Shown here: piece by piece, positions 957 through 49,917 of the stretch
Layout of the letters: the number at the start of each line of letters is the position of its first letter
How positions within the stretch are numbered: the stretch's first letter is position 1
Virus record (IMG/VR): IMGVR_UViG_3300049259_000157
Location: 1-51,346 of that record
DNA length: 51,346 nucleotides
Source: a virus
Direction: 5' to 3' (one strand)
Notes under the pieces: model-generated
The model's database searches: none
Told to the model about the DNA's origin: nothing
The model's input: the letters and a program-made list of their open reading frames with translations, nothing else
Made by a program: the position numbers and the translations under genes

Positions 957-2228
957 CTACTCGCCGCCGGAGCCGAGCGCCTTTTTCTTCGGCTGATGCG
1001 GCTTGAACGCCTCGCTCGTATTGATCGAGACGCCGCCAATCTTCGTGATCTCCAGGGTGACGGCGTCGAACACGCCGTCACCTTTTCTCGTTTCCATCTT
1101 GTCCTTGGGTCCCTTGTTCGCGGCGACGACCTCACGCAGCGCGGAGAACGACGTCTTGAGCTCGAACGCGGTCATCGCGCGCTCGGCCCCGTAGCGGCGC
1201 TCCATCACCTGGTAGGCGATCTTGGGATCGACGGTTCGCCACTTTCGCTCGACGCGCTCGATGATGCGCCCGTCGGCCAGCGGGATCGGCCCGGCGACCG
1301 CGCTGATGTTGCAGATCTCCTGCTTGACGCGCGCGAGCGCTTCCTCGATCCGCTCCGCCATCATGAAAACGTCGGCCGCGTTCCGAATGGTGATCGCCTT
1401 GGCATCGAACGCCAGCTTGCCCTCGGGATCGAGCGGACCGACGCCCATCGCGACGAGCTCGGCCGGCACCGAGCGGAGCATCTCGGTTTTGGCCCGACAG
1501 TTCAGATACGCCGGGCAGTAGTCGCAGTGCGCCCCCTCGCGGAGCGGCACGAGACGGCCGGCCTGGAGGTCATCGCGGTAGCCCTCGGCGAGCACGAACG
1601 CGGCGCGCAGCTCGAGGTCGAAGGCGTCAAGGTCCCACGAGTCGACGACGCGCCGCACGCTGTGGTGATCGCCGTCGTCATGGATGTACGTGAGCGAGAC
1701 CTCGACCTCGTCGACGCCATAGATCCGCTGGATGCACAGCGCGCCGAGCATCGTCTGGCCCCACTGGTCGGGCGTGGGGTACTTCGTGTGGCCGCTCTTG
1801 TAGTCGTCGCAGATGCCGCGCACGGCGTCGTGGTAGATGCCGGCGACGTCGATCGTGATGGGGATCTCGGGCCAGACCGGCGGATCCGCGACTCCGCCGT
1901 AGCCGCGGTTGAGGCCACGGCCCAGCACGCGCGCGCCGCCCGTCTGGCAATTCCACGCGAAGGCGACCTCGCAGGTCACCTCGGCGGGCAGGCGATCCAG
2001 GTCGATGCAGCTCAGCATCAGCCGCAGATCCTTGGGCGCGGCCGCGAGCGCGGCGTCGATCCCGATCTCGCGCACCGTCTCGAGAAACTTGTGGATGTCT
2101 TTGCCGCGGTTTCGCGCCGGCTCGGTGCGCGCTTCCTCGGTGTCGTTGATGACGCCAGGCAGCTCGGCGCTGGCGGGGCACTTCCAGAGGCGGTGCACCT
2201 TGGACCCAGTTATTTCGCGGCAGGTCAC
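957..2228 (-). CDS. Cas4/RecB-like PD-(D/E)XK exonuclease with Fe-S cluster cysteines
   Basis: The 423-residue protein has the RecB/Cas4 nuclease layout. An early cysteine (C17, in WKCPAS) precedes motif I GKDIHKF (H46), then ITIDVAG (D127), then DDYKSG (D142, K144), then a Q/Y helix beginning at QWGQTM. C235, C238 and C244 in HCDYCPAYLNC would complete a 4Fe-4S cluster with C17. The remaining 170 residues are a less recognisable C-terminal domain. Such nucleases resect dsDNA ends and commonly sit beside single-strand annealing proteins; here it is the last gene of the operon that begins with the RecT/Bet-like gene. The ATG overlaps the previous stop. An exonuclease role in recombination is inferred from motifs and context. 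Confidence 0.85.
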   Translation of the reverse strand: MTCREITGSKVHRLWKCPASAELPGVINDTEEARTEPARNRGKDIHKFLETVREIGIDAALAAAPKDLRLMLSCIDLDRLPAEVTCEVAFAWNCQTGGARVLGRGLNRGYGGVADPPVWPEIPITIDVAGIYHDAVRGICDDYKSGHTKYPTPDQWGQTMLGALCIQRIYGVDEVEVSLTYIHDDGDHHSVRRVVDSWDLDAFDLELRAAFVLAEGYRDDLQAGRLVPLREGAHCDYCPAYLNCRAKTEMLRSVPAELVAMGVGPLDPEGKLAFDAKAITIRNAADVFMMAERIEEALARVKQEICNISAVAGPIPLADGRIIERVERKWRTVDPKIAYQVMERRYGAERAMTAFELKTSFSALREVVAANKGPKDKMETRKGDGVFDAVTLEITKIGGVSINTSEAFKPHQPKKKALGSGGE

Positions 2229-2743: not shown

Positions 2744-2970
2744 GGCGTCACCTCGAGCTCGCGGTCGACGGCGCTGGCGAATACGCCATAGGCGTATGCC
2801 GCCGATCGCAGGTCCGCCGACGTCGTCGCGTTCGCCGCGGCGCCATACGCGATCGCGGCACCGCGCAGCCGACGGTCGAGCTCGAACAGCCGGTCGACCA
2901 CGGATACCGCGATCGCGGGTGGCGGCCACGCGACGTCGGCGACCACCTCCATCTTGACGGTACGCGTCAC
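2740..2970 (-). CDS. Small hypothetical protein in recombination operon, 76 aa
   Basis: GTG start overlapping the annealase stop as GTGA. The chain is mostly helical and Ala-rich: a short strand (TVKMEVVADVAW), then VVDRLFELDRRL, then AAYAYGVFASAVDRELEV. No domain or catalytic motif is visible. Position between the annealase and the DUF4406-like gene, with overlaps at both ends, suggests co-translation with the recombination genes. Confidence 0.65.
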   Translation of the reverse strand: MTRTVKMEVVADVAWPPPAIAVSVVDRLFELDRRLRGAAIAYGAAANATTSADLRSAAYAYGVFASAVDRELEVTP

Positions 2971-4202
2971 TTGGTGAGCTCCGTCATGCGCTTCGCATAC
3001 GCCTGCTGCATGGCGGCTGCTTCAGGGCTGCCCGATGCGATCCCACTTTCGTCGGTCTGCGCCCACGCGCGCCATCCCGCCTTGCCGCGGCGGAGGTCGG
3101 CTTCGGTGGCGCACGACGAGACCCACGTGTAGTAGTCGGCCAGCGTCTTGGGCGGCGGCGTCGCGTCACGCGGATCGTCCTCGTAGAAGTCATCGCCGCC
3201 GGCACCATGGGGCGTCGCGGCAGGGCTCGACTCCGATGCGGTCGACGCTGAGCTCGAGGTCGGCGCCGGCGAAGTAGGGCGCGACTTAGCGAGCTCCTCG
3301 CGCACGTCGGCCGGAACGGAGCCGGGAAAGGGAGCCGCCGTCGAGGCCGCTGGGGCGGCGGTTGACGATGTCACGGAGGGCGCAGGAGCGCTCGTCGCGC
3401 CCGACGACGAATCGCCGGATGTCGGGCGCGACGTAGGGACCTCGGTCGACTTGGCATCGATCGGCTTGGCGGCCGCGCGAGGCTTCGCCGCCGCGGTGGC
3501 GGGCTTGGCCGGCTCGGCCGCGGCAACCTGAACCTGCGCCGGTCGGGCGACGTCGGGCAGCGGGCCCGGCGTGACGTTGATGATAGGCGAGCTCGCGTCC
3601 GGCATGCCGTCGTTGGCCTCTTCCAGCGTCAGCAGGCCCGCCATGACGTCGGGCCACACCAGCCGGCACAGCTCGGCGCCGGCGCGCGCGAGCAGCATGT
3701 TCTCGGGGAACTTCATCCACATCCCCGGGCCGCCGTCGCGGTTCGTCTTGATGAGGCCGGCACGCTTCGCGCGCTCGATCGTCCAGGTGACGCTTTTTTC
3801 CGGGCGCCCGCGGCGCTTGCCTACCCAGGTCGCGCGCGTCTCGGTCGACTCGATGAACTCGAGGTATTCGCAGAGCGGAGAGCTGAGGATGAGGCCGCGA
3901 ACGCCCTCGGAGCTGAGTCGCGGCACCCCCTCGATCAGGTGGTAGCTCCGCAGCGCCGCCATCGGCGCGATGCCGAGCTCGGCGCCCGACATGATCACGA
4001 TCGCCATGTCCTGCGGCTTGTCCTTGTACGCCTTGGGCACCAGGTCGGACAATGTGAGCGCAGAGCACATGGCCTGCACCTGGACGAAGTTGGTGGGCAC
4101 GATGGGGAGCGGCCGCGATGCGCCGACCTCCATGCCGTCGCGTACTTGCATCAGCTGTTGGTTGCGCGTGGTGAGAGCTGTTTCCTGTGGCTGCGTCGTC
4201 AT
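2967..4202 (-). CDS. RecT/Red-beta-like single-strand annealing recombinase
   Basis: The 411-residue protein matches the Bet/RecT pattern. An N-terminal helix is followed by DMAIVIMSGAELGIAPMAALRSYHLIEGVP and LSSEGVRGLILSS, then a basic strand region (RATWVGKRRGR), VTWTIERAKRAGLIK, and the diagnostic WMKFPENMLLARAGAELCRLVWPDVMAGLLTLEEA. Residues about 215-340 are a Pro/Ala/Ser/Thr linker. The last 60 residues form a separate helical tail (DYYTWVSSC...AKRMTEL), the place where Red-beta contacts its exonuclease or SSB. Such proteins anneal complementary single strands. It is the first gene of the recombination operon, has AGGAG nine bases before the ATG, and is transcribed divergently from the replication genes. 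Confidence 0.85.
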   Translation of the reverse strand: MTTQPQETALTTRNQQLMQVRDGMEVGASRPLPIVPTNFVQVQAMCSALTLSDLVPKAYKDKPQDMAIVIMSGAELGIAPMAALRSYHLIEGVPRLSSEGVRGLILSSPLCEYLEFIESTETRATWVGKRRGRPEKSVTWTIERAKRAGLIKTNRDGGPGMWMKFPENMLLARAGAELCRLVWPDVMAGLLTLEEANDGMPDASSPIINVTPGPLPDVARPAQVQVAAAEPAKPATAAAKPRAAAKPIDAKSTEVPTSRPTSGDSSSGATSAPAPSVTSSTAAPAASTAAPFPGSVPADVREELAKSRPTSPAPTSSSASTASESSPAATPHGAGGDDFYEDDPRDATPPPKTLADYYTWVSSCATEADLRRGKAGWRAWAQTDESGIASGSPEAAAMQQAYAKRMTELTK

Positions 4203-43960: not shown

Positions 43961-44389
43961 ATGCGCCGCACCAAGTGCTTGTTCACCGCCCTCTGCCTCA
44001 TGCTGACCGCTGCAACCCCCGCCCTCGCCGGCAAGCGCCACGCCGATGCGCCGACCCTCGCGAGCGCCAAGCACGCGGTCGCTGCCTCGAAGCTGCGGCT
44101 CGCGAGCGCCAAGGGCGAGGCCAAGCTCGCCGCGCACCGCCTGAAGCTGGCCAAGGCCCAGGCCGCGGTCACCAAGGCGCAGCACAAGCTCGCCGTCGAG
44201 GCCTGGATCGAGCAGTGCATCTACGAGCGCACCGGGCCGACCGAGGGCATCACGGAGGGGGAGGCCGCGGTGATCTGCGCTGCCGAGGTCCCCGACGAGG
44301 CCGGCGACGACGCGCTCAATGCCTGGGCGCAGCGCACCCTGGGCCAGCCGATCATCACGCCCGCGGTGCTCGACGCCAGCCAGCAGTAG
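43961..44389 (+). CDS. Exported helical protein, 142 aa
   Basis: A Sec signal peptide (MRRTKCLFTALCLMLTAATPALA, about residues 1-23) with an A-L-A cleavage motif leads to a Lys/Ala-rich helix (HADAPTLASAKHAVAASKLRLASAKGEAKLAAHRLKLAKAQAAVTKAQHKLAV). A shorter acidic C-terminal part with two cysteines follows (EQCIYERTG, AVICAAEVPDEAGDD). The long charged helix could form a periplasmic coiled coil. It is a second exported product besides the one at 13.3 kb. CCAGGAG precedes the ATG. Confidence 0.7.
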   Translation: MRRTKCLFTALCLMLTAATPALAGKRHADAPTLASAKHAVAASKLRLASAKGEAKLAAHRLKLAKAQAAVTKAQHKLAVEAWIEQCIYERTGPTEGITEGEAAVICAAEVPDEAGDDALNAWAQRTLGQPIITPAVLDASQQ

Positions 44390-44525
44390 CCGACGGGGCC
44401 CGGCGCCCTCTGGCTGCATGCCTCGTTGCCTGCAGCTCCTCGACGCCGAGCACTGTCGCCCCCTTGTTACAGTTCGATACTCGCGACGCCCGCTCAAACC
44501 GCAACCCCGGACACCAGGAGAGACC
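44390..44525 (+). promoter_or_regulatory. Leader module A
   Basis: This gap shares features with two later gaps. A GC-rich dyad (GGGC/GCCC near 44397) comes first, then CTCGACGCC (44438-44446), then TTGTTA and GATACT (44464 and 44476), then GGACACCAGGAG just before the start. Conserved order and spacing suggest a promoter or operator with its own ribosome binding site. The -10-like GATACT has no normal -35 at 17 bases. Confidence 0.5.
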
Positions 44526-44843
44526 GTGAAGAACCTCGCACCCTCTACCCTCGCATCCCTGCCGCCCGCCGCGGCCATCGAGCTGCACTCGCTCGCCGAC
44601 CTTGAGGCCGCGTTCAACGCGCGACGCCTCGCGCTCCGCGAGCAAGCCGATGCCCAGCTCCTCGCGGGGCGCGTGCTGATCGGCACGATCCCCCAGCCGT
44701 CGATGGCATCGCCGACGGGCCCCCGCACCCAGCCGCGCGACGGCCGCGGCAGGTTCCTGAACCGGGCGTGGCTCGCTGCGGCCGAGAGCTACTCGCCGGC
44801 CGAGCTCGCCTGGTTCCGGGCCCCGATCGCGGAGGGCAAGTAA
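44526..44843 (+). CDS. Hypothetical protein, 105 aa
   Basis: GTG 44526 follows CCAGGAGAGACC. The product has ELHSLADLEAAFNARRLALREQADAQLLAGR, an amphipathic helix, then a Pro/Thr/Arg-rich middle and a last helix NRAWLAAAESYSPAELAWF. It ends AEGK, because its last codons contain the ribosome binding site of the next gene. No family is recognised. Confidence 0.6.
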   Translation: MKNLAPSTLASLPPAAAIELHSLADLEAAFNARRLALREQADAQLLAGRVLIGTIPQPSMASPTGPRTQPRDGRGRFLNRAWLAAAESYSPAELAWFRAPIAEGK

Positions 44844-44844
44844 C

Positions 44845-45105
44845 ATGGAGGCGCCGACGTTCGGCTACGTCGCGAACCGCTCGCCCACGGGCGACGCGAG
44901 CGCGCTCCTCGTCAGTCGCGCCGACGATGGCCGCTGGATGTTCCAGCCTGACGAGGGCGGGCCGCTGCGCGAGCTCGTCGGGCGCCACAGGCTCTACGCG
45001 AAGCGCGACGAGGCCGTGCTGATCGCTCGATTCCTGTGGCGGTGCAACGGCGGTCGGCCCCGTTCGATGCGGCCCGTGTCCATCGGCTACGCGGAGGGCA
45101 AGTAG
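44845..45105 (+). CDS. Hypothetical protein, 86 aa
   Basis: The ATG follows the stop by one base, with GGAGGG of the preceding codons serving as ribosome binding site. The chain has strands (TFGYVANRSPTGDASALLVSR, DGRWMFQPDEGG), a helix (RDEAVLIARFLWRCNGG) and ends YAEGK. The last codons again contain GGAGGG. No known motif. Confidence 0.6.
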   Translation: MEAPTFGYVANRSPTGDASALLVSRADDGRWMFQPDEGGPLRELVGRHRLYAKRDEAVLIARFLWRCNGGRPRSMRPVSIGYAEGK

Positions 45106-45106
45106 C

Positions 45107-45259
45107 ATGTCGATCTACAACAAGTTCGGTCCTCGCGGCCAGGTTGGCGGACATGACGTTGTGCCGCCACGCTGCATGGTGTGCAAGACGCCCGTACGAC
45201 CCGGCATGAACGATCCCTGCAGATGCTTCCCTGCAGATGCTTCCGCGAAGGGCAAATAG
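45107..45259 (+). CDS. Small zinc-ribbon-like protein, 50 aa
   Basis: The frame starts one base after the previous stop and is too short for common ORF lists. It reads MSIYNKFGPRGQVGG, then PRCMVCKTPV and DPCRCFPAD, so two cysteine pairs (C-x2-C and C-x-C) could hold one zinc. It ends AKGK and supplies AAGGGC as ribosome binding site for the next gene. A 14-base tandem duplication lies in its 3' part and changes the frame there. Confidence 0.5.
   Translation: MSIYNKFGPRGQVGGHDVVPPRCMVCKTPVRPGMNDPCRCFPADASAKGK
45214..45241. repeat. 14-bp tandem duplication
   Basis: TCCCTGCAGATGCT occurs twice with no spacer and is followed by a partial third TCC. Fourteen is not a multiple of three, so the duplication shifts the reading frame in the 50-residue gene. 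It appears recent because both copies are identical. Confidence 0.85.
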
Positions 45260-45261
45260 CC

Positions 45262-45687
45262 ATGGCGCAGAAACTCGTGCGCTTCGAAACCTGGGAGCAA
45301 GTGCTGGAAGCGGCGCGTTCCGGAGAGCGTCTCTGGTACGCCTCACCGATGGACGTCGCATCGGCGTATGGGCGTCGCATCGTCGCGGTGATCCGCGTGT
45401 ACAAGAACGGCAAGCTGCGCATCGACGCGATGTCGAGCCAGCTGGACAACTTCACCGCAGACGCTGGCCATCTGTATAGGTTCTTTCGCCGCGCGAAAGA
45501 CGAGCCTCTGCCCGATGCCACCTCGATCGCCAGCGCGGTCAGGCAACTCGGCCATCACGCGAATCTCACTAATCTCGCACACCTCGGCTGGACGCGTCGG
45601 GATGTCCAGGCCGCGGTCAGACGGGGCGAAATCGCCTGGACTGCTAGCGGAACACTTGAAGCCAGCGACGTCGCGGAGGGTAAGTAG
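45262..45687 (+). CDS. Hypothetical protein, 141 aa
   Basis: ATG 45262 follows AAGGGCAAATAGCC. The product begins AQKLVRFETWEQVLEAARSGERLWYASP, then IVAVIRVYKNGKLRIDAMSSQLDNF, then a helical part (GHLYRFFRRAKDE) and LGWTRRDVQAAVRRGEIAW. The last resembles a small helix-turn-helix or winged helix. It ends VAEGK with GGAGGG inside its last codons. No family is recognised. Confidence 0.65.
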   Translation: MAQKLVRFETWEQVLEAARSGERLWYASPMDVASAYGRRIVAVIRVYKNGKLRIDAMSSQLDNFTADAGHLYRFFRRAKDEPLPDATSIASAVRQLGHHANLTNLAHLGWTRRDVQAAVRRGEIAWTASGTLEASDVAEGK

Positions 45688-45688
45688 C

Positions 45689-46003
45689 ATGGCAGGCTCA
45701 AAACGCTCCGCCATCGAGGTGTGCGCGCTTCGCGTTCGAGCACTAGTCGCCCATGATGCCAAGAGACACGCTCTTGTCCGTTCGGTTCTGAACGCACGCG
45801 CCGAGCGCTGTGATGCGAAATGCCCTGGCTGGCTCATCGATTCGGAGCGAGCTGGACGCATCATGCGGTGCGACGAATGCGCAAGCCTCAACGGCTACGC
45901 TGACGTCCTGCGTGACGCCGATGTTTCGAAGCTGCCCGCGGCGATCGATGCACAGATCGCATCGCTGCCTAACAGCGCCGGCGCTCGACGGAAGCGCACC
46001 TAG
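45689..46003 (+). CDS. Cysteine-containing hypothetical protein, 104 aa
   Basis: The ATG follows GGAGGGTAAGTAGC. The product has a basic helix (SAIEVCALRVRALVAHDAKRHALVRSVLNARAERCDAKCPGWL) and a CDEC pair (IMRCDECASLNGYAD). The C-terminus is basic (GARRKRT). Cysteines at about 39, 43, 60 and 63 could bind zinc. No family is recognised. Confidence 0.6.
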   Translation: MAGSKRSAIEVCALRVRALVAHDAKRHALVRSVLNARAERCDAKCPGWLIDSERAGRIMRCDECASLNGYADVLRDADVSKLPAAIDAQIASLPNSAGARRKRT

Positions 46004-46122
46004 CCCCTCGGCCCGTGGGGCCCAGCGACGGCATCGGTCAGTCTGTGCCGCGGCTCGACGCCACGACCTATTGCAATTGGATACTTGCCACGCACGCTCA
46101 ACACAGGACACCAGGAGGGACT
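46004..46122 (+). promoter_or_regulatory. Leader module B
   Basis: The hairpin GGCCC/GGGCC (46010-46022) and CCCAGCGA are followed by CTCGACGCC, then TTGCAATTGGATACT (46071-46085) and CACAGGACACCAGGAGGG before the start. Its order and several words match modules A and C; CCCAGCGA and CACAGGACA are shared exactly with module C. It probably carries transcription and translation signals. Confidence 0.55.
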
Positions 46123-46428
46123 ATGCCGTTTTACAGGACGCCACCGCTCACTCGCCTCGCCGAGACCTACGTCTCGATCATGCCACGAACCTGCAGCCTC
46201 GCGCTGCAGGGCCACGCCGAGGCGATTCGCTCGCTAGAGCTCGTCGCGCTCGCCGACTCGGTGCAGCCGATCGCCGAGGCGTCGTGCTTGCGCCTGTTCG
46301 GACGCGGCGTGTCTTGGAGGGCAATCGCGACGACCATGGCGATCTGCCGCAATGCTGCCAAGTCGGACAGGGCACGCGCCATCCTCGGCCGCGCCTCAAT
46401 CTACGCCGAGCGCAAGGCGGTGTCGTGA
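46123..46428 (+). CDS. Hypothetical protein, 101 aa
   Basis: CAGGAGGGACT precedes ATG. The product is helical: TRLAETYVSIMPRTCSLALQGHAEAIRSLELVALADSVQP, then CLRLFGRGVSWRAIATTMAICRNAAKSDRARAILGRASIYAERK. The segment GVSWRAIATTMAICRNAAKSD resembles a helix-turn-helix. A DNA-binding role is possible but unproved. The stop overlaps the next start. Confidence 0.6.
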   Translation: MPFYRTPPLTRLAETYVSIMPRTCSLALQGHAEAIRSLELVALADSVQPIAEASCLRLFGRGVSWRAIATTMAICRNAAKSDRARAILGRASIYAERKAVS

Positions 46429-46598
46429 TGGACCGCTGGAACGTCCACACTGGTCGCCCGTCGTGGCATCAGGCCAAGGCTGGCCACATCTCCGCGGGCT
46501 GCACGAGCTTCACGGATCGCCAAGCTGCCGATCGCTACGCCGACACCTATCGCCGCAACCACCCTGACGATCCGTGCTTCGTGCAGGAGGTCAAGTAG
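46428..46598 (+). CDS. Small hypothetical protein, 56 aa
   Basis: ATG 46428 directly follows GTG 46425, which is also possible. The product has an aromatic, His-rich start (DRWNVHTGRPSWHQAK), then SAGCTSFTDRQAADRYADTYRRNHPDD and ends CFVQEVK. The form is that of short phage proteins of unknown function. Its last codons hold GGAGG for the next gene (caGGAGGtcaagtagcATG). Confidence 0.55.
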   Translation: MDRWNVHTGRPSWHQAKAGHISAGCTSFTDRQAADRYADTYRRNHPDDPCFVQEVK

Positions 46599-46599
46599 C

Positions 46600-46830
46600 A
46601 TGCCGGCGCGCGGCGACCTCACGGTGCCATACGCCTACCACGGAGTCTCCGACGGCGTTCCCACGCCATGGATCGCGCAGGACCTGACGCTCCTCGAGCA
46701 GATCGCAATCGAGGCCGCGCTGCACGACGATCACCTCACGGTCGAGCTGTGCGAGCTCGCGGTCCACGGATCGCCCAACGTGAGGGAGGCCGCATGCGAT
46801 GCGATCTACGCGAAGCTCGGTGGGCGATGA
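46600..46830 (+). CDS. Small hypothetical protein, 76 aa
   Basis: The ATG lies one base after the previous stop at the same type of junction as at 44.8-45.7 kb. After a polar lead it is helical (PWIAQDLTLLEQIAIEAALHDDHLTVELCELAVHG, NVREAACDAIYAKLGG). No domain is recognised. Its ATGA end couples it to the next gene. Confidence 0.6.
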   Translation: MPARGDLTVPYAYHGVSDGVPTPWIAQDLTLLEQIAIEAALHDDHLTVELCELAVHGSPNVREAACDAIYAKLGGR

Positions 46831-47075
46831 GCTTGAAATTCGCAGTCAACGGCGCTCCGATACCGTGTCCGGGCGCCACTCTCGAGTACCACAACGGGTC
46901 CGTCCGTTGCCCAGAATGCGCAGCGGCGTGGGGCTCGGTCGAGCCATTCATCGTAGCATCCAAGCGGCTAATTCAGGCGCTCGAGACATCCGACCCGCGC
47001 GGCGTCCTGCCGGAGCTCGCCGAGCGTATGATGCTTATCTGGGGCGAGGCCATGCGGGGGACCGAGGGCCAATAG
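46827..47075 (+). CDS. Small protein with CxxC, 82 aa
   Basis: ATG overlaps the upstream stop. The start carries FAVNGAPIPCPGATLEYHNGSVRCPECAAAWG, with a CPEC pair and an earlier CP, a possible half zinc ribbon. A helix follows (PFIVASKRLIQALETSDPRGVLPELAERMMLIWGEAM). No known family. It precedes leader module C. Confidence 0.55.
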   Translation: MSLKFAVNGAPIPCPGATLEYHNGSVRCPECAAAWGSVEPFIVASKRLIQALETSDPRGVLPELAERMMLIWGEAMRGTEGQ

Positions 47076-47183
47076 CGTCCGTGGCGCCCAGCGATTTCAC
47101 AGGTATGTCCTGTGCGCTCGCTAGACCCCATTGACAATGTGATACTTCGGACGACACTTCACACAGGACACAGGAGGTTTGGA
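47076..47183 (+). promoter_or_regulatory. Leader module C, bracketed by an inverted repeat
   Basis: CCCAGCGA (47087), TTGACAATGTGATACT (47131-47146) and CACAGGACACAGGAGG (47162-47177) follow the order of modules A and B. In addition TGTCCTGTG (47106-47114) and CACAGGACA (47162-47170) are perfect nine-base complements flanking the GATACT element. The ribosome binding site is inside the right arm, so a long-range hairpin could mask it. Confidence 0.55.
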
Positions 47184-48725
47184 ATGGAAATCGAGCTCGA
47201 AATCGACGCACCGTGCAACCAATGCGGCCGCGTCAGACTCCTCGGCGTGGATGGCAGCTGCCGACCGTGCGCAACCGACCGACCGACGGTCAGCTACCAG
47301 GCCGATCCGCCCGCCATCATCGTCAACGGATCTTCGCAGGCATCGGTGGATGCGGTGAGCGAATCGCTTCGCGATATCGTCGCGGCATCCCGTCACAACT
47401 CGTCCGTGCAGGGCATCGGATCTCTGGCCGGGGGCCAGCTGCAGGGGATCGGGTTCTCCAACAAGGAGGGCTACATCACGGCGATCCGCAACGGGGTTCC
47501 TGGCCGCACGCACGCCGAGTACATGACGGTGCTGCGCTCGCGGTACGGCATGACCACGGCCGACATCGCGGCGCTCGCGCTGCCGGGCCCCATGACGCCG
47601 ACCGCGCTCCCCGATGGCCCCGGCATCAAGCATGTGCCGACCGGGCCGTCCGTCTTCGACCGGCCGCGCTCGGAACGCACGTTCGTCGTCGGGCCCAAGG
47701 CGAACGACGTCGTTGAGGCCGCGCCGATCGTCAAGCTTGAGCACGGCCAGCTCATCGCCGGCGCGACGGCCGAGGGGCACGGAGTCCTGGTCGGCTGGCA
47801 GGGCCAGGGCAAGCTCTCCCGCGGTGCGCTTGTCGCGGCGATCGAGACGCTGGGCGTCAGGGTGCCGCTCGCGACGTCGGCTCGCGCACAGGCAGGCCGG
47901 GTCATGGGCGAGCTGAACGGGCTCGGCTACGTGGTCCGCGTCGCCCGCGAGGCCAGGGCGGTCAACACCACGATATGGACGATCGGGCGGGTCAATCACA
48001 AGTCGCTCGTGGGCAGCGAGCTCGGCGAGGTCACGATGCGCGCCACGCTGCATCCCGACGGCTCGATCACGACCGATGGCGGCGGGGGTCTCGCAGAGCA
48101 AGTGCAGGCCAAGTACAAGACGCTCGTCGAGGGCGAGATCTACCAGGCCGCCGACATCACCGGCTGGCTCGTCCGCACGCTGATGATCGGCTACGACGCG
48201 GTGCGGTTCGGCGTCGGCTGGTACGTGCCAGCGCGGCATGCCGCGGCCGCGGGCGAGCTGTGCGCGACGGTCTCTAAGATCTGGGGCTCGGACTGGATCG
48301 TGCCCGCGCTGCCCGTGGCGACCAGCGACCAGCTGCGCGATGGCATCGTTCGTGGACTCACGGACGAGGTCGCGAGCCTGCTGCACAAGCTGGCGACTGA
48401 GCGCAACACGGCACAGGTGGCATATGAGGACCGCGTTGCGACGCACAAGGCCAACCAGCAAGACCTGATGATCGGGCGCGGCGACATCGGCCCCAAGCGC
48501 GCGGCGTCGTTCCTGGTCGAGCTCCGCGCGATCGGCGCCCGCATGGTGGCCTACGGGCAGATCCTCGGCGAGGAGCGCGTGAAGCTCGCCAGCGACAGCG
48601 TGCGCGCCGCGGTCGTCGAGCTCGAGTCGGTGCTCAGCGATGACTTCTCGGGGATCAGCGCACGGTTCGCCGCGGTGTGGGACGAGATCGAGCTCGACCG
48701 CAAGCGCTCGGGCGGGGTGCTCTGA
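47184..48725 (+). CDS. Large protein with N-terminal zinc ribbon, 513 aa
   Basis: CAGGAGG precedes the ATG. The N-terminus has a zinc ribbon (PCNQCGRVRLLGVDGSCRPC). Residues about 40-130 include NNSVQGIGSLAGGQLQGIG-like Gly-rich sequence and a helical part (TVLRSRYGMTTADIAALAL) like a helix-turn-helix. Residues 195-350 mix strands and helices (VLVGWQGQGKLSRGALVAAIETLGV, VVRVAREARAVNTTIWTIGR). The C-terminal half is helical, with ITGWLVRTLMIGYDAVRFGVGWYVPA, DQLRDGIVRGLTDEVASLLHK and LVELRAIGARMVAYGQILGEE. I recognise no family with confidence. It is the largest product of the + array and may be its main effector. Confidence 0.7.
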   Translation: MEIELEIDAPCNQCGRVRLLGVDGSCRPCATDRPTVSYQADPPAIIVNGSSQASVDAVSESLRDIVAASRHNSSVQGIGSLAGGQLQGIGFSNKEGYITAIRNGVPGRTHAEYMTVLRSRYGMTTADIAALALPGPMTPTALPDGPGIKHVPTGPSVFDRPRSERTFVVGPKANDVVEAAPIVKLEHGQLIAGATAEGHGVLVGWQGQGKLSRGALVAAIETLGVRVPLATSARAQAGRVMGELNGLGYVVRVAREARAVNTTIWTIGRVNHKSLVGSELGEVTMRATLHPDGSITTDGGGGLAEQVQAKYKTLVEGEIYQAADITGWLVRTLMIGYDAVRFGVGWYVPARHAAAAGELCATVSKIWGSDWIVPALPVATSDQLRDGIVRGLTDEVASLLHKLATERNTAQVAYEDRVATHKANQQDLMIGRGDIGPKRAASFLVELRAIGARMVAYGQILGEERVKLASDSVRAAVVELESVLSDDFSGISARFAAVWDEIELDRKRSGGVL

Positions 48726-48961: not shown

Positions 48962-49164
48962 ACCGCCAGCGCCGCGACCAGGTCAGACGGCATACGCTCG
49001 AGTATCTCGGGAACCTGCTGCATTGTTGTCCCGATCAACGCGGTCAACTATACGTTGACGACACGGGCAGGGTGATAAACGACGACGAACAACGGTTTAT
49101 CGTCTCCATTTGCCAGCAAGAGGGGATGCGGCTCATCGCCCGCGCCAAGAGGAGCAAGCCGTGA
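48958..49164 (+). CDS. Small hypothetical protein, 68 aa
   Basis: GTGA start. The product is basic at its N-terminus (NRQRRDQVRRHTLEYLGNLLHCC), then QRGQLYVDDTGRVINDDEQRFIVSICQQEGMRLIARAKRSKP. Its end KRSKP arises from AGAGGAGCAAGCCG, which contains the ribosome binding site of the next gene. No family is recognised. Confidence 0.55.
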   Translation: MNRQRRDQVRRHTLEYLGNLLHCCPDQRGQLYVDDTGRVINDDEQRFIVSICQQEGMRLIARAKRSKP

Positions 49165-49361
49165 TCACCGGGTGTTACGACCTCGTGCTGTATTGCGACG
49201 CCGACGGATGCCACGGCGGACGGGCTCGCGGGCCATCCAGGTTCGAGGCGACCGATGAGTTCGGATCGGTGTGCCGCACGATGGCACGCCAAGACGGATG
49301 GGTGCTGCGGCGTGACGGCACCTGCGTATGCCCGGCCTGCGCAAAGAGGAGCAAGCCGTGA
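49161..49361 (+). CDS. Zinc-ribbon protein, 66 aa
   Basis: GTGA start. The chain has LVLYCDADGCHGGRARG, a central helix (VCRTMARQDGWVL) and RDGTCVCPACAKR. C-x4-C with C-x-C-x2-C is a known form of small phage zinc ribbons with a GWV-RDG-CP-C core. It ends KRSKP as its neighbour does. A nucleic acid or protein target is possible. Confidence 0.65.
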   Translation: MITGCYDLVLYCDADGCHGGRARGPSRFEATDEFGSVCRTMARQDGWVLRRDGTCVCPACAKRSKP

Positions 49362-49612
49362 GTAGGGCCAAGTTCAAACCCGGTCAGGCCGTCGAGGTTC
49401 TTCGGGACATGCAGAGAACGTGGGAAGCTGCCACCTACGTGGGACGATGTCAGTCGATCGGGCGCTCGTTCCATCGCGTGAAGCTTGCGACACCTAAGCG
49501 CATAGACAGCGGCACCGGAATTGACATCGACGCCGATGATCCGCGCGGATACCTGACGGACAATGATGTCCTGCCTGCCATGCGGATTCGCCACCCCAAG
49601 GCCAAGCCGTGA
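49358..49612 (+). CDS. Small beta-rich protein, 84 aa
   Basis: GTGA start. SRAKFKPGQAVEVLRDMQRTWEAATYVGRCQSIGRSFHRVKLATPK suggests a small SH3-like barrel of strands. RGYLTDNDVLPAMRIR follows and the end is HPKAKP, with CAAGGCCAAGCCGTGA at the junction. The KPGQAVEV start is common among small barrel proteins that bind nucleic acid or protein. No family is assigned. Confidence 0.6.
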   Translation: MSRAKFKPGQAVEVLRDMQRTWEAATYVGRCQSIGRSFHRVKLATPKRIDSGTGIDIDADDPRGYLTDNDVLPAMRIRHPKAKP

Positions 49613-49917
49613 GACTTCGCAAGCCAGGGGTCACCGATCTGACGCTCATGACCACCATCGTGCTGACCGACGGCATCCCGCAGATCCGCTTCTGGGACGA
49701 TGACGAGGAGGACGACGCCATGGAGTACATCCGCAAGATCAAGGAGCCCGGCGCGGCATACGTCAGCCGCGTGACCTGGAATGGCGAGCTCAAGCTCGCC
49801 TCCGTGAAGTACCAGGCGAGCTCGATCACCAGGGCTTGCCCGAAGTGCAACGCCCCGGTCGGCGCGGGCTGCAAGAAGCCCAACGGTGACCCCACAGCGC
49901 TACACAGGATGCGATGA
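49609..49917 (+). CDS. Zinc-finger protein, 102 aa
   Basis: GTGA start. A strand TTIVLTDGIPQIRFWDDD and helix DAMEYIRKIKEP precede VTWNGELKLASVKYQ. The C-terminus has RACPKCNAPVGAGCKKPNGD and ALHRMR, a CPxC-x6-C ... H motif frequent at the ends of phage proteins that bind nucleic acid. The final R-rich residues fit that group. Its stop is followed by two hairpins. Confidence 0.65.
   Translation: MRLRKPGVTDLTLMTTIVLTDGIPQIRFWDDDEEDDAMEYIRKIKEPGAAYVSRVTWNGELKLASVKYQASSITRACPKCNAPVGAGCKKPNGDPTALHRMR

Follow-up and report, generated by a model that had tools for sequence, protein, structure and literature searches.

The window analysed here is the whole 51,346-bp stretch of the IMG/VR record IMGVR_UViG_3300049259_000157, which encodes a myophage. 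Its minus strand carries the genes for terminase, portal, tail sheath, baseplate, tape measure, RecT and exonuclease, and the plus strand holds, from 43.0 to 51.3 kb, a block of small genes that appear to be early, judging from gene type and orientation. The small open reading frames were called mechanically, and genes F and H are low-scoring. The features of this block are as follows (G numbers denote related phages specified below).

43961..44389, plus strand: gene C, signal-peptide-like, a conserved anchor, without the junction in the window
44472..44525, plus strand: leader/promoter-like repeat 1 (..TTACAGTTCGATACTC..GGACACCAGGAG), before gene D
44526..44843, plus strand: gene D, 105 aa, ending PIA-EGK; homologues in G001, G002 and G004 with differing 3' ends
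44831-44847, plus strand: junction j1, GGAGGGCAAGTAACATG
44845..45105, plus strand: cassette gene E, 86 aa, without a homologue in the relatives
45093-45109, plus strand: junction j2, GGAGGGCAAGTAGCATG
45107..45259, plus strand: cassette gene F, 50 aa, Cys-rich
45247-45264, plus strand: degenerate junction j3, GAAGGGCAAATAGCCATG, differing by two G-to-A changes and one additional C
45262..45687, plus strand: cassette gene G, 141 aa; N-terminal homologue in G008, whose copy is preceded by another start sequence
45675-45691, plus strand: junction j4, GGAGGGTAAGTAGCATG
45689..46003, plus strand: cassette gene H, 104 aa, the last of its unit
46073..46122, plus strand: leader/promoter-like repeat 2, before the gene at 46123
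46123..46428, plus strand: gene I, 101 aa
46428..46598, plus strand: gene J, 56 aa, ending QEVK; weak match to phrog_642 (unknown function)
46586-46602, plus strand: junction j5, GGAGGTCAAGTAGCATG
46600..46830, plus strand: cassette gene K, 76 aa
46827..47075, plus strand: gene L, ending EGQ, which overlaps K by 4 nt and closes the unit; start and stop read from the sequence
47120..47183, plus strand: leader/promoter-like repeat 3, before the gene at 47184
47184..48725, plus strand: gene M, 513 aa, a conserved anchor of unknown function, 60-65% identical in G001 and G002 and also present in G008

The earlier note had described a repeated junction of stop codon, ribosome site and start codon at five sites, and we found it there in four exact copies and one degenerate copy. 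The sequence GGAGGNNAAGTARCATG occurs exactly at 44831, 45093, 45675 and 46586, and the consensus of this joint is GGAGG[GT]CAAGTAGC(C)ATG. When the 51,346 bp were searched on both strands with up to three mismatches, the only matches were the four exact copies, j3 not being among them, whereas 0.05 matches are expected by chance and the largest count in 100 shuffles was 1. All five copies lie on the plus strand between 44.8 and 46.6 kb, and in each the joint lies at the ribosome binding site directly before the start codon, the genes so preceded being non-homologous. As the note had also proposed, the ribosome site occupies the last sense codons of the upstream gene, so that the frames before j1 to j5 end in ..IAEGK, ..YAEGK, ..SAKGK, ..VAEGK and ..QEVK, although the genes themselves are not paralogous: no paralogy was found when the junction-flanked genes were searched for it. 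At each of the five window sites the start follows the stop with a gap of +1 or +2 and the SD is inside the upstream gene, which is the geometry of termination-reinitiation. A perfect 14-nt tandem duplication (45214-45244, plus strand) is situated directly upstream of j3 and determines which frame is closed by the j3 stop. With one 14-nt copy removed, F reads in frame through the joint into G, and it is thus possible that the duplication fixed the frame once the two had been joined.

Five of 14 close junctions use the joint, in comparison to 0 of 25 on the minus strand among the structural and replication genes (Fisher p = 0.003), where close junctions are mostly -4 and -1 overlaps. The early block 3' of gene M also has mostly -4 overlaps. 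The absence of the joint both from the minus-strand operons and from the block past M implies that it belongs to the region from C to M and not to every gene pair. Three leaders sharing CA-AT--GATACT...GGACAC-AGGAG precede the first genes of three units. As no sigma-70-like promoter was found between 42.9 and 49 kb, it is possible that the GATACT leaders are early promoters or operators of a non-sigma-70 consensus. Further downstream, a second repeated junction, AGAGGAGCAAGCCGTGA, is present at 49138-49164 and 49335-49361 (also 49600-49613); it has a 4-nt GTGA overlap, and the products end in KRSKP. A sequence resembling it, AAGCC[AG]TGA, is rare in the relatives.

Relatives were found in IMG/VR through gene M, gene D and the terminase, and early regions were taken from eight related contigs whose terminases are 52-62% identical: G001 (3300012927_000002), G002 (3300036852_000324), G004 (3300046694_000329), G005 (3300017528_000255), G006 (3300005345_000151), G007 (3300031507_000007), G008 (3300028380_000023) and G010 (3300002461_000559). 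Some of these regions were spliced across contig ends on the assumption of circular permutation, and no joint falls at a splice. The terminase tree places the window with G008 and unites G001, G002, G004 and G006 in a clade, with many inner branches left open. L052 (IMGVR_UViG_3300049004_000049), a contig whose terminase is 100% identical to that of the window, is 17.8 kb long and stops short of the early region. Among 50,697 phage records no cultured relative was detected by DNA match, nor was there any match to M, G, K or the MRFRFN gene described below; the terminase gave weak matches only (23-28% identity). Two scans of 84,980 genomes for a host or prophage revealed no terminase relative.

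The exact joint GGAGG[GT]CAAGTAGCCATG is present in G001 (two copies), G002 (three), G006 (one) and G007 (one), and near variants occur in G002 (GAGGGGGAATAGCC), G006 (GGGAGGCAAGTAGCC) and G008 (GGAGGGCAGGTAGCC). The distant relatives G005 and G010 have the geometry only (GGAGATCGTGTAGCC and GGAGGTCGCGTAACC), and the early region of G004 contains neither the joint nor the looser geometry. Across the early regions of the nine related phages, the window included (58 kb in all), the pattern GGAG-N6-TAR-N(1-2)-ATG was counted 16 times. It was absent from the same-strand sequence flanking these regions in the same phages (about 112 kb), and unrelated phage DNA contained it 3 times (about 313 kb, or 627 kb over both strands; the count excludes the hits that fetched those contigs). 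The enrichment in early regions is significant at P about 5e-23. Moreover, the spacer with one C distinguishes four of the five window copies and none of the 17 junctions in the relatives, which suggests copying inside this genome.

The earlier note proposed comparing the gene content between junctions in related phages, and this comparison revealed that the junction is kept while the genes behind it differ. When the early genes were clustered, C, D and M emerged as conserved anchors and many others as singletons; window genes E, F and H to L have no homologue in the other genomes compared. Behind gene C the joint is found in four relatives, each with its own, non-homologous cargo: c32 in G001, c10 in G002, c79 in G006 and c93 in G007. 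In the window, G004 and G008, C has no joint. Since the C joint occurs in three of the four members of the G001/G002/G004/G006 clade as well as in G007, it may have been inherited in place, its cargo being replaced, and lost in G004. Similarly, D carries the joint in the window and in G002, with different genes behind it, and is without it in G001 and G004. Without the joint, D has the C-terminus SPIA (G004) or SPLNG (G001), and with it PIA-EGK (window) or PVT-EGK (G002), so the joint overwrites or extends the C-terminus of the upstream gene. The shared EGK end is most easily understood as a consequence of the joint and not as a tag common to these proteins. We rejected a tag function for EGK at the C-terminus, since in relatives without the joint the same proteins do not have it.

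The limits of similarity between genomes were assessed in ungapped alignments anchored at the ATG and scored in 10-nt bins. The c10 gene, which comes second after C and behind the joint in G002, is driven by a leader in G006; the identity between the two copies per 10 nt is 4, 3, 4, 2, 4 and 4 before the ATG and 9, 9 and 9 after it, until an indel. For the MRFRFN gene, compared between G002 and G004, the corresponding values are 1, 5, 5, 1, 6 and 6 before and 10, 9, 7, 9 and 9 after. Thus, in two gene families the DNA similarity jumps at the ATG, from 35-40% to about 90%. In the window itself, GC3, which averages 0.895 (sd 0.024) in the structural genes, falls from 0.92 in E to 0.68 in F precisely at j2. 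The MRFRFN gene is intact in G004 (L058 10927-11091); in G002 it forms a fusion with the middle of a truncated gene M (L006 3088-4084), where the frame breaks near 3360. The variable early regions of two relatives also encode pentapeptide-repeat proteins with NLTxADL-like units (L005 9066-9710 and L058 13380-13719).

Relatives with a fixed gene order and diverged junctions, which the earlier note had named as the pattern contrary to its view, were not seen among these genomes; the opposite pattern was found. Its picture of cassettes is therefore largely supported, in that the cargo differs and similarity is edged at the ATG, although the arrangement itself proved to be partly translational and convergent. 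The search for recombination exactly at the junctions, which it had also suggested, puts the edge at the start codon in two gene families. No near-identical pair of genomes differing by a single cassette was present in the collections searched, and therefore we can only infer a crossover inside the joint itself.

We slightly favour the view that the joint is a start-associated coupler combined with an accessory-gene slot edged at the ATG, which offers short homology for RecT-like annealing. The SD is situated in the last sense codons of one gene, with the stop about 5 nt further on and the start of the following gene 1-2 nt past the stop. Reinitiation requires an overlap or a very short gap and is usually helped by an intragenic SD (PMC10666635, PMC6728339), and given this the geometry of the joint suggests that it couples translation. 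A small gene lacking a promoter could in this way ride at the end of a leader-driven early unit through termination-reinitiation. In this phage group the joint is the constant piece and the gene behind it the variable one, so that the accessory slot has the ATG as its left edge. A stretch of 17-20 bp repeated at many gene ends offers short homology for annealing, and the window encodes two candidate proteins for this step.

2967..4202, minus strand: RecT-like single-strand annealing protein, the candidate recombinase
957..2228, minus strand: exonuclease (phrog_69), the likely partner of RecT

RecT homologues were detected in the window and in all three relatives tested. Phage Rad52-like recombinases, RecT included, build mosaics from diverged DNA (PMC3945230). 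A RecT-like annealing protein could swap or add cassettes by using copies of the joint, and with such a protein encoded in the window, exchange by annealing at the joint itself is plausible. However, cargo turns over behind joint-less leaders as well, so the joint is not needed for exchange, and in G006 one joint (GGAGGCCGCGTAGCC) seems to derive from the C-terminal codons of the gene itself; both observations count against this explanation. Cassettes edged by the joint could also arise by illegitimate exchange, with selection then favouring a working joint. A more ambitious form of the same idea, which we consider doubtful, is a dual-purpose cassette linker serving both as a stop/SD/start coupler and as a homology arm for RecT: any foreign frame that brings the joint along would be integrated in phase and expressed immediately, and chains such as D-E-F-G-H would grow by successive insertions.

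The alternative that survives best, though we still regard it as rather unlikely, is that only translation is involved: a favourable arrangement of stop, SD and start would re-evolve between back-to-back early genes with no role in exchange, and selection acting on codon use, on the SD and on an A-rich spacer would account for the identity of the joint. When the viral collection was scanned with the joint, 45 stretches were found, 4 of them in these relatives and 41 as single copies of identical 17-18-mers in unrelated contigs (GC 0.35-0.75), where nearly all lie at apparent stop/start junctions flanked by open frames. This implies that the arrangement is recurrent for back-to-back genes, and such convergence makes the identity of the joint alone a weaker proof of common descent. 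Moreover, the AAG form (45 stretches) is about fourfold commoner than the GCG form (11), so a lysine codon before the stop is generally favoured, and distant relatives G005 and G010 retain the geometry alone. However, contigs with several copies turned up in that scan only within this phage group, none of the 25 close junctions in the phage's own minus-strand operons uses the joint, and the window copies share a private one-C variant. Convergence does not explain the multi-copy genomes, the restriction to early regions, the one-C spacer or the changing cargo. Whatever role the joint has in translation, the edges at the ATG and the differing cargo behind an orthologous joint demand gene exchange.

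A start-associated regulatory site, at which a phage or host factor (RNA or protein) would control early translation with modularity secondary, could account for the confinement of the joint to the early region and for conserved positions outside the SD (CAAGTAGCC), which resemble the SAS bases without rRNA pairing (PMC3203893). The leaders, too, have genome-specific repeated start sequences, such as CCAGGAGCATCCA-ATG, which occurs several times in G008, and ACAGGACAGGATACAGACC-ATG in G005. We nevertheless consider such a site improbable, since RNA structure at the five window joints gave no consistent signal (z -0.4 to +2.0), one C is missing in most window copies, the AAG codon changes freely in distant relatives, and the same gene family occurs both with and without the joint. 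Repeated tandem duplication of an ancestral gene and its junction, with later divergence of the copies, fits their closeness and single orientation but was already disfavoured and is very improbable, because the junction-flanked products have no mutual similarity, G has a homologue in another phage that is not shared by the others, and neighbours differ in base composition.

The preferred reading, a coupler joined to an accessory slot, can be compared with several known systems. Boundary sequences, or linkers, have been proposed as sites of homologous recombination in lambdoid phages. Exchange by homology has likewise been proposed for short shared boundary sequences at module edges (PMC3029335). 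Like these, the joint is a short shared stretch at an edge where modules differ between relatives; unlike the lambdoid boundaries, it is probably also a translation coupler, is repeated within one genome and acts on the scale of single genes. In cluster K mycobacteriophages, SAS is a short conserved repeat with an SD before the starts of unrelated genes (PMC3203893), and motifs similar to SAS occur in Microbacterium cluster EF phages (PMC7302621). The joint shares with these motifs the SD, several copies per genome and conservation beyond rRNA pairing. However, the SAS sequence (GGGATAGGAGCCC, a 13-bp consensus, or GGGAAAGGACCCC) is unrelated, and SAS includes the upstream stop only sometimes, whereas the joint always contains both stop and start, so that the last residues of the upstream gene are largely fixed (E-G/V-K). 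There are 1-5 joints per genome in comparison to 10-19 SAS copies. SAS and ESAS mostly stay with a gene family, whereas families gain and lose the joint and its cargo changes. ESAS are 17-bp inverted repeats upstream of a subset of SAS, and no such repeats were found near the joints (44380-47200). The differences in sequence, in stop/start content and in family fidelity are why we do not file the joint as SAS. As in prokaryotic termination-reinitiation junctions, stop and start lie within a few nucleotides and the SD is in the upstream gene (PMC6728339, PMC10666635), but typical junctions of that kind are -4/-1 overlaps in free surroundings, as on the minus strand of the window, and the joint has a +1/+2 gap in 17-20 nearly fixed bp. 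Finally, joint-preceded genes differ from morons in being without their own flanking promoter and terminator, and the gap of 1-2 nt before them leaves no intergenic room for a promoter.

An old dispute on phage mosaics with edges at genes sets shared boundary sequences against random illegitimate exchange followed by selection. Here a visible repeated boundary with a plausible purpose of its own, variable cargo and an annealing recombinase come together, which makes both ideas testable at one locus. Almost none of the accessory early genes of this phage group matched a known family in our searches; against Pfam and PHROGs the cassette products gave nothing above the curated cut-offs, apart from one weak match to a PHROG of unknown function. 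The joint can also serve as a guide for spotting accessory early genes in this phage group.
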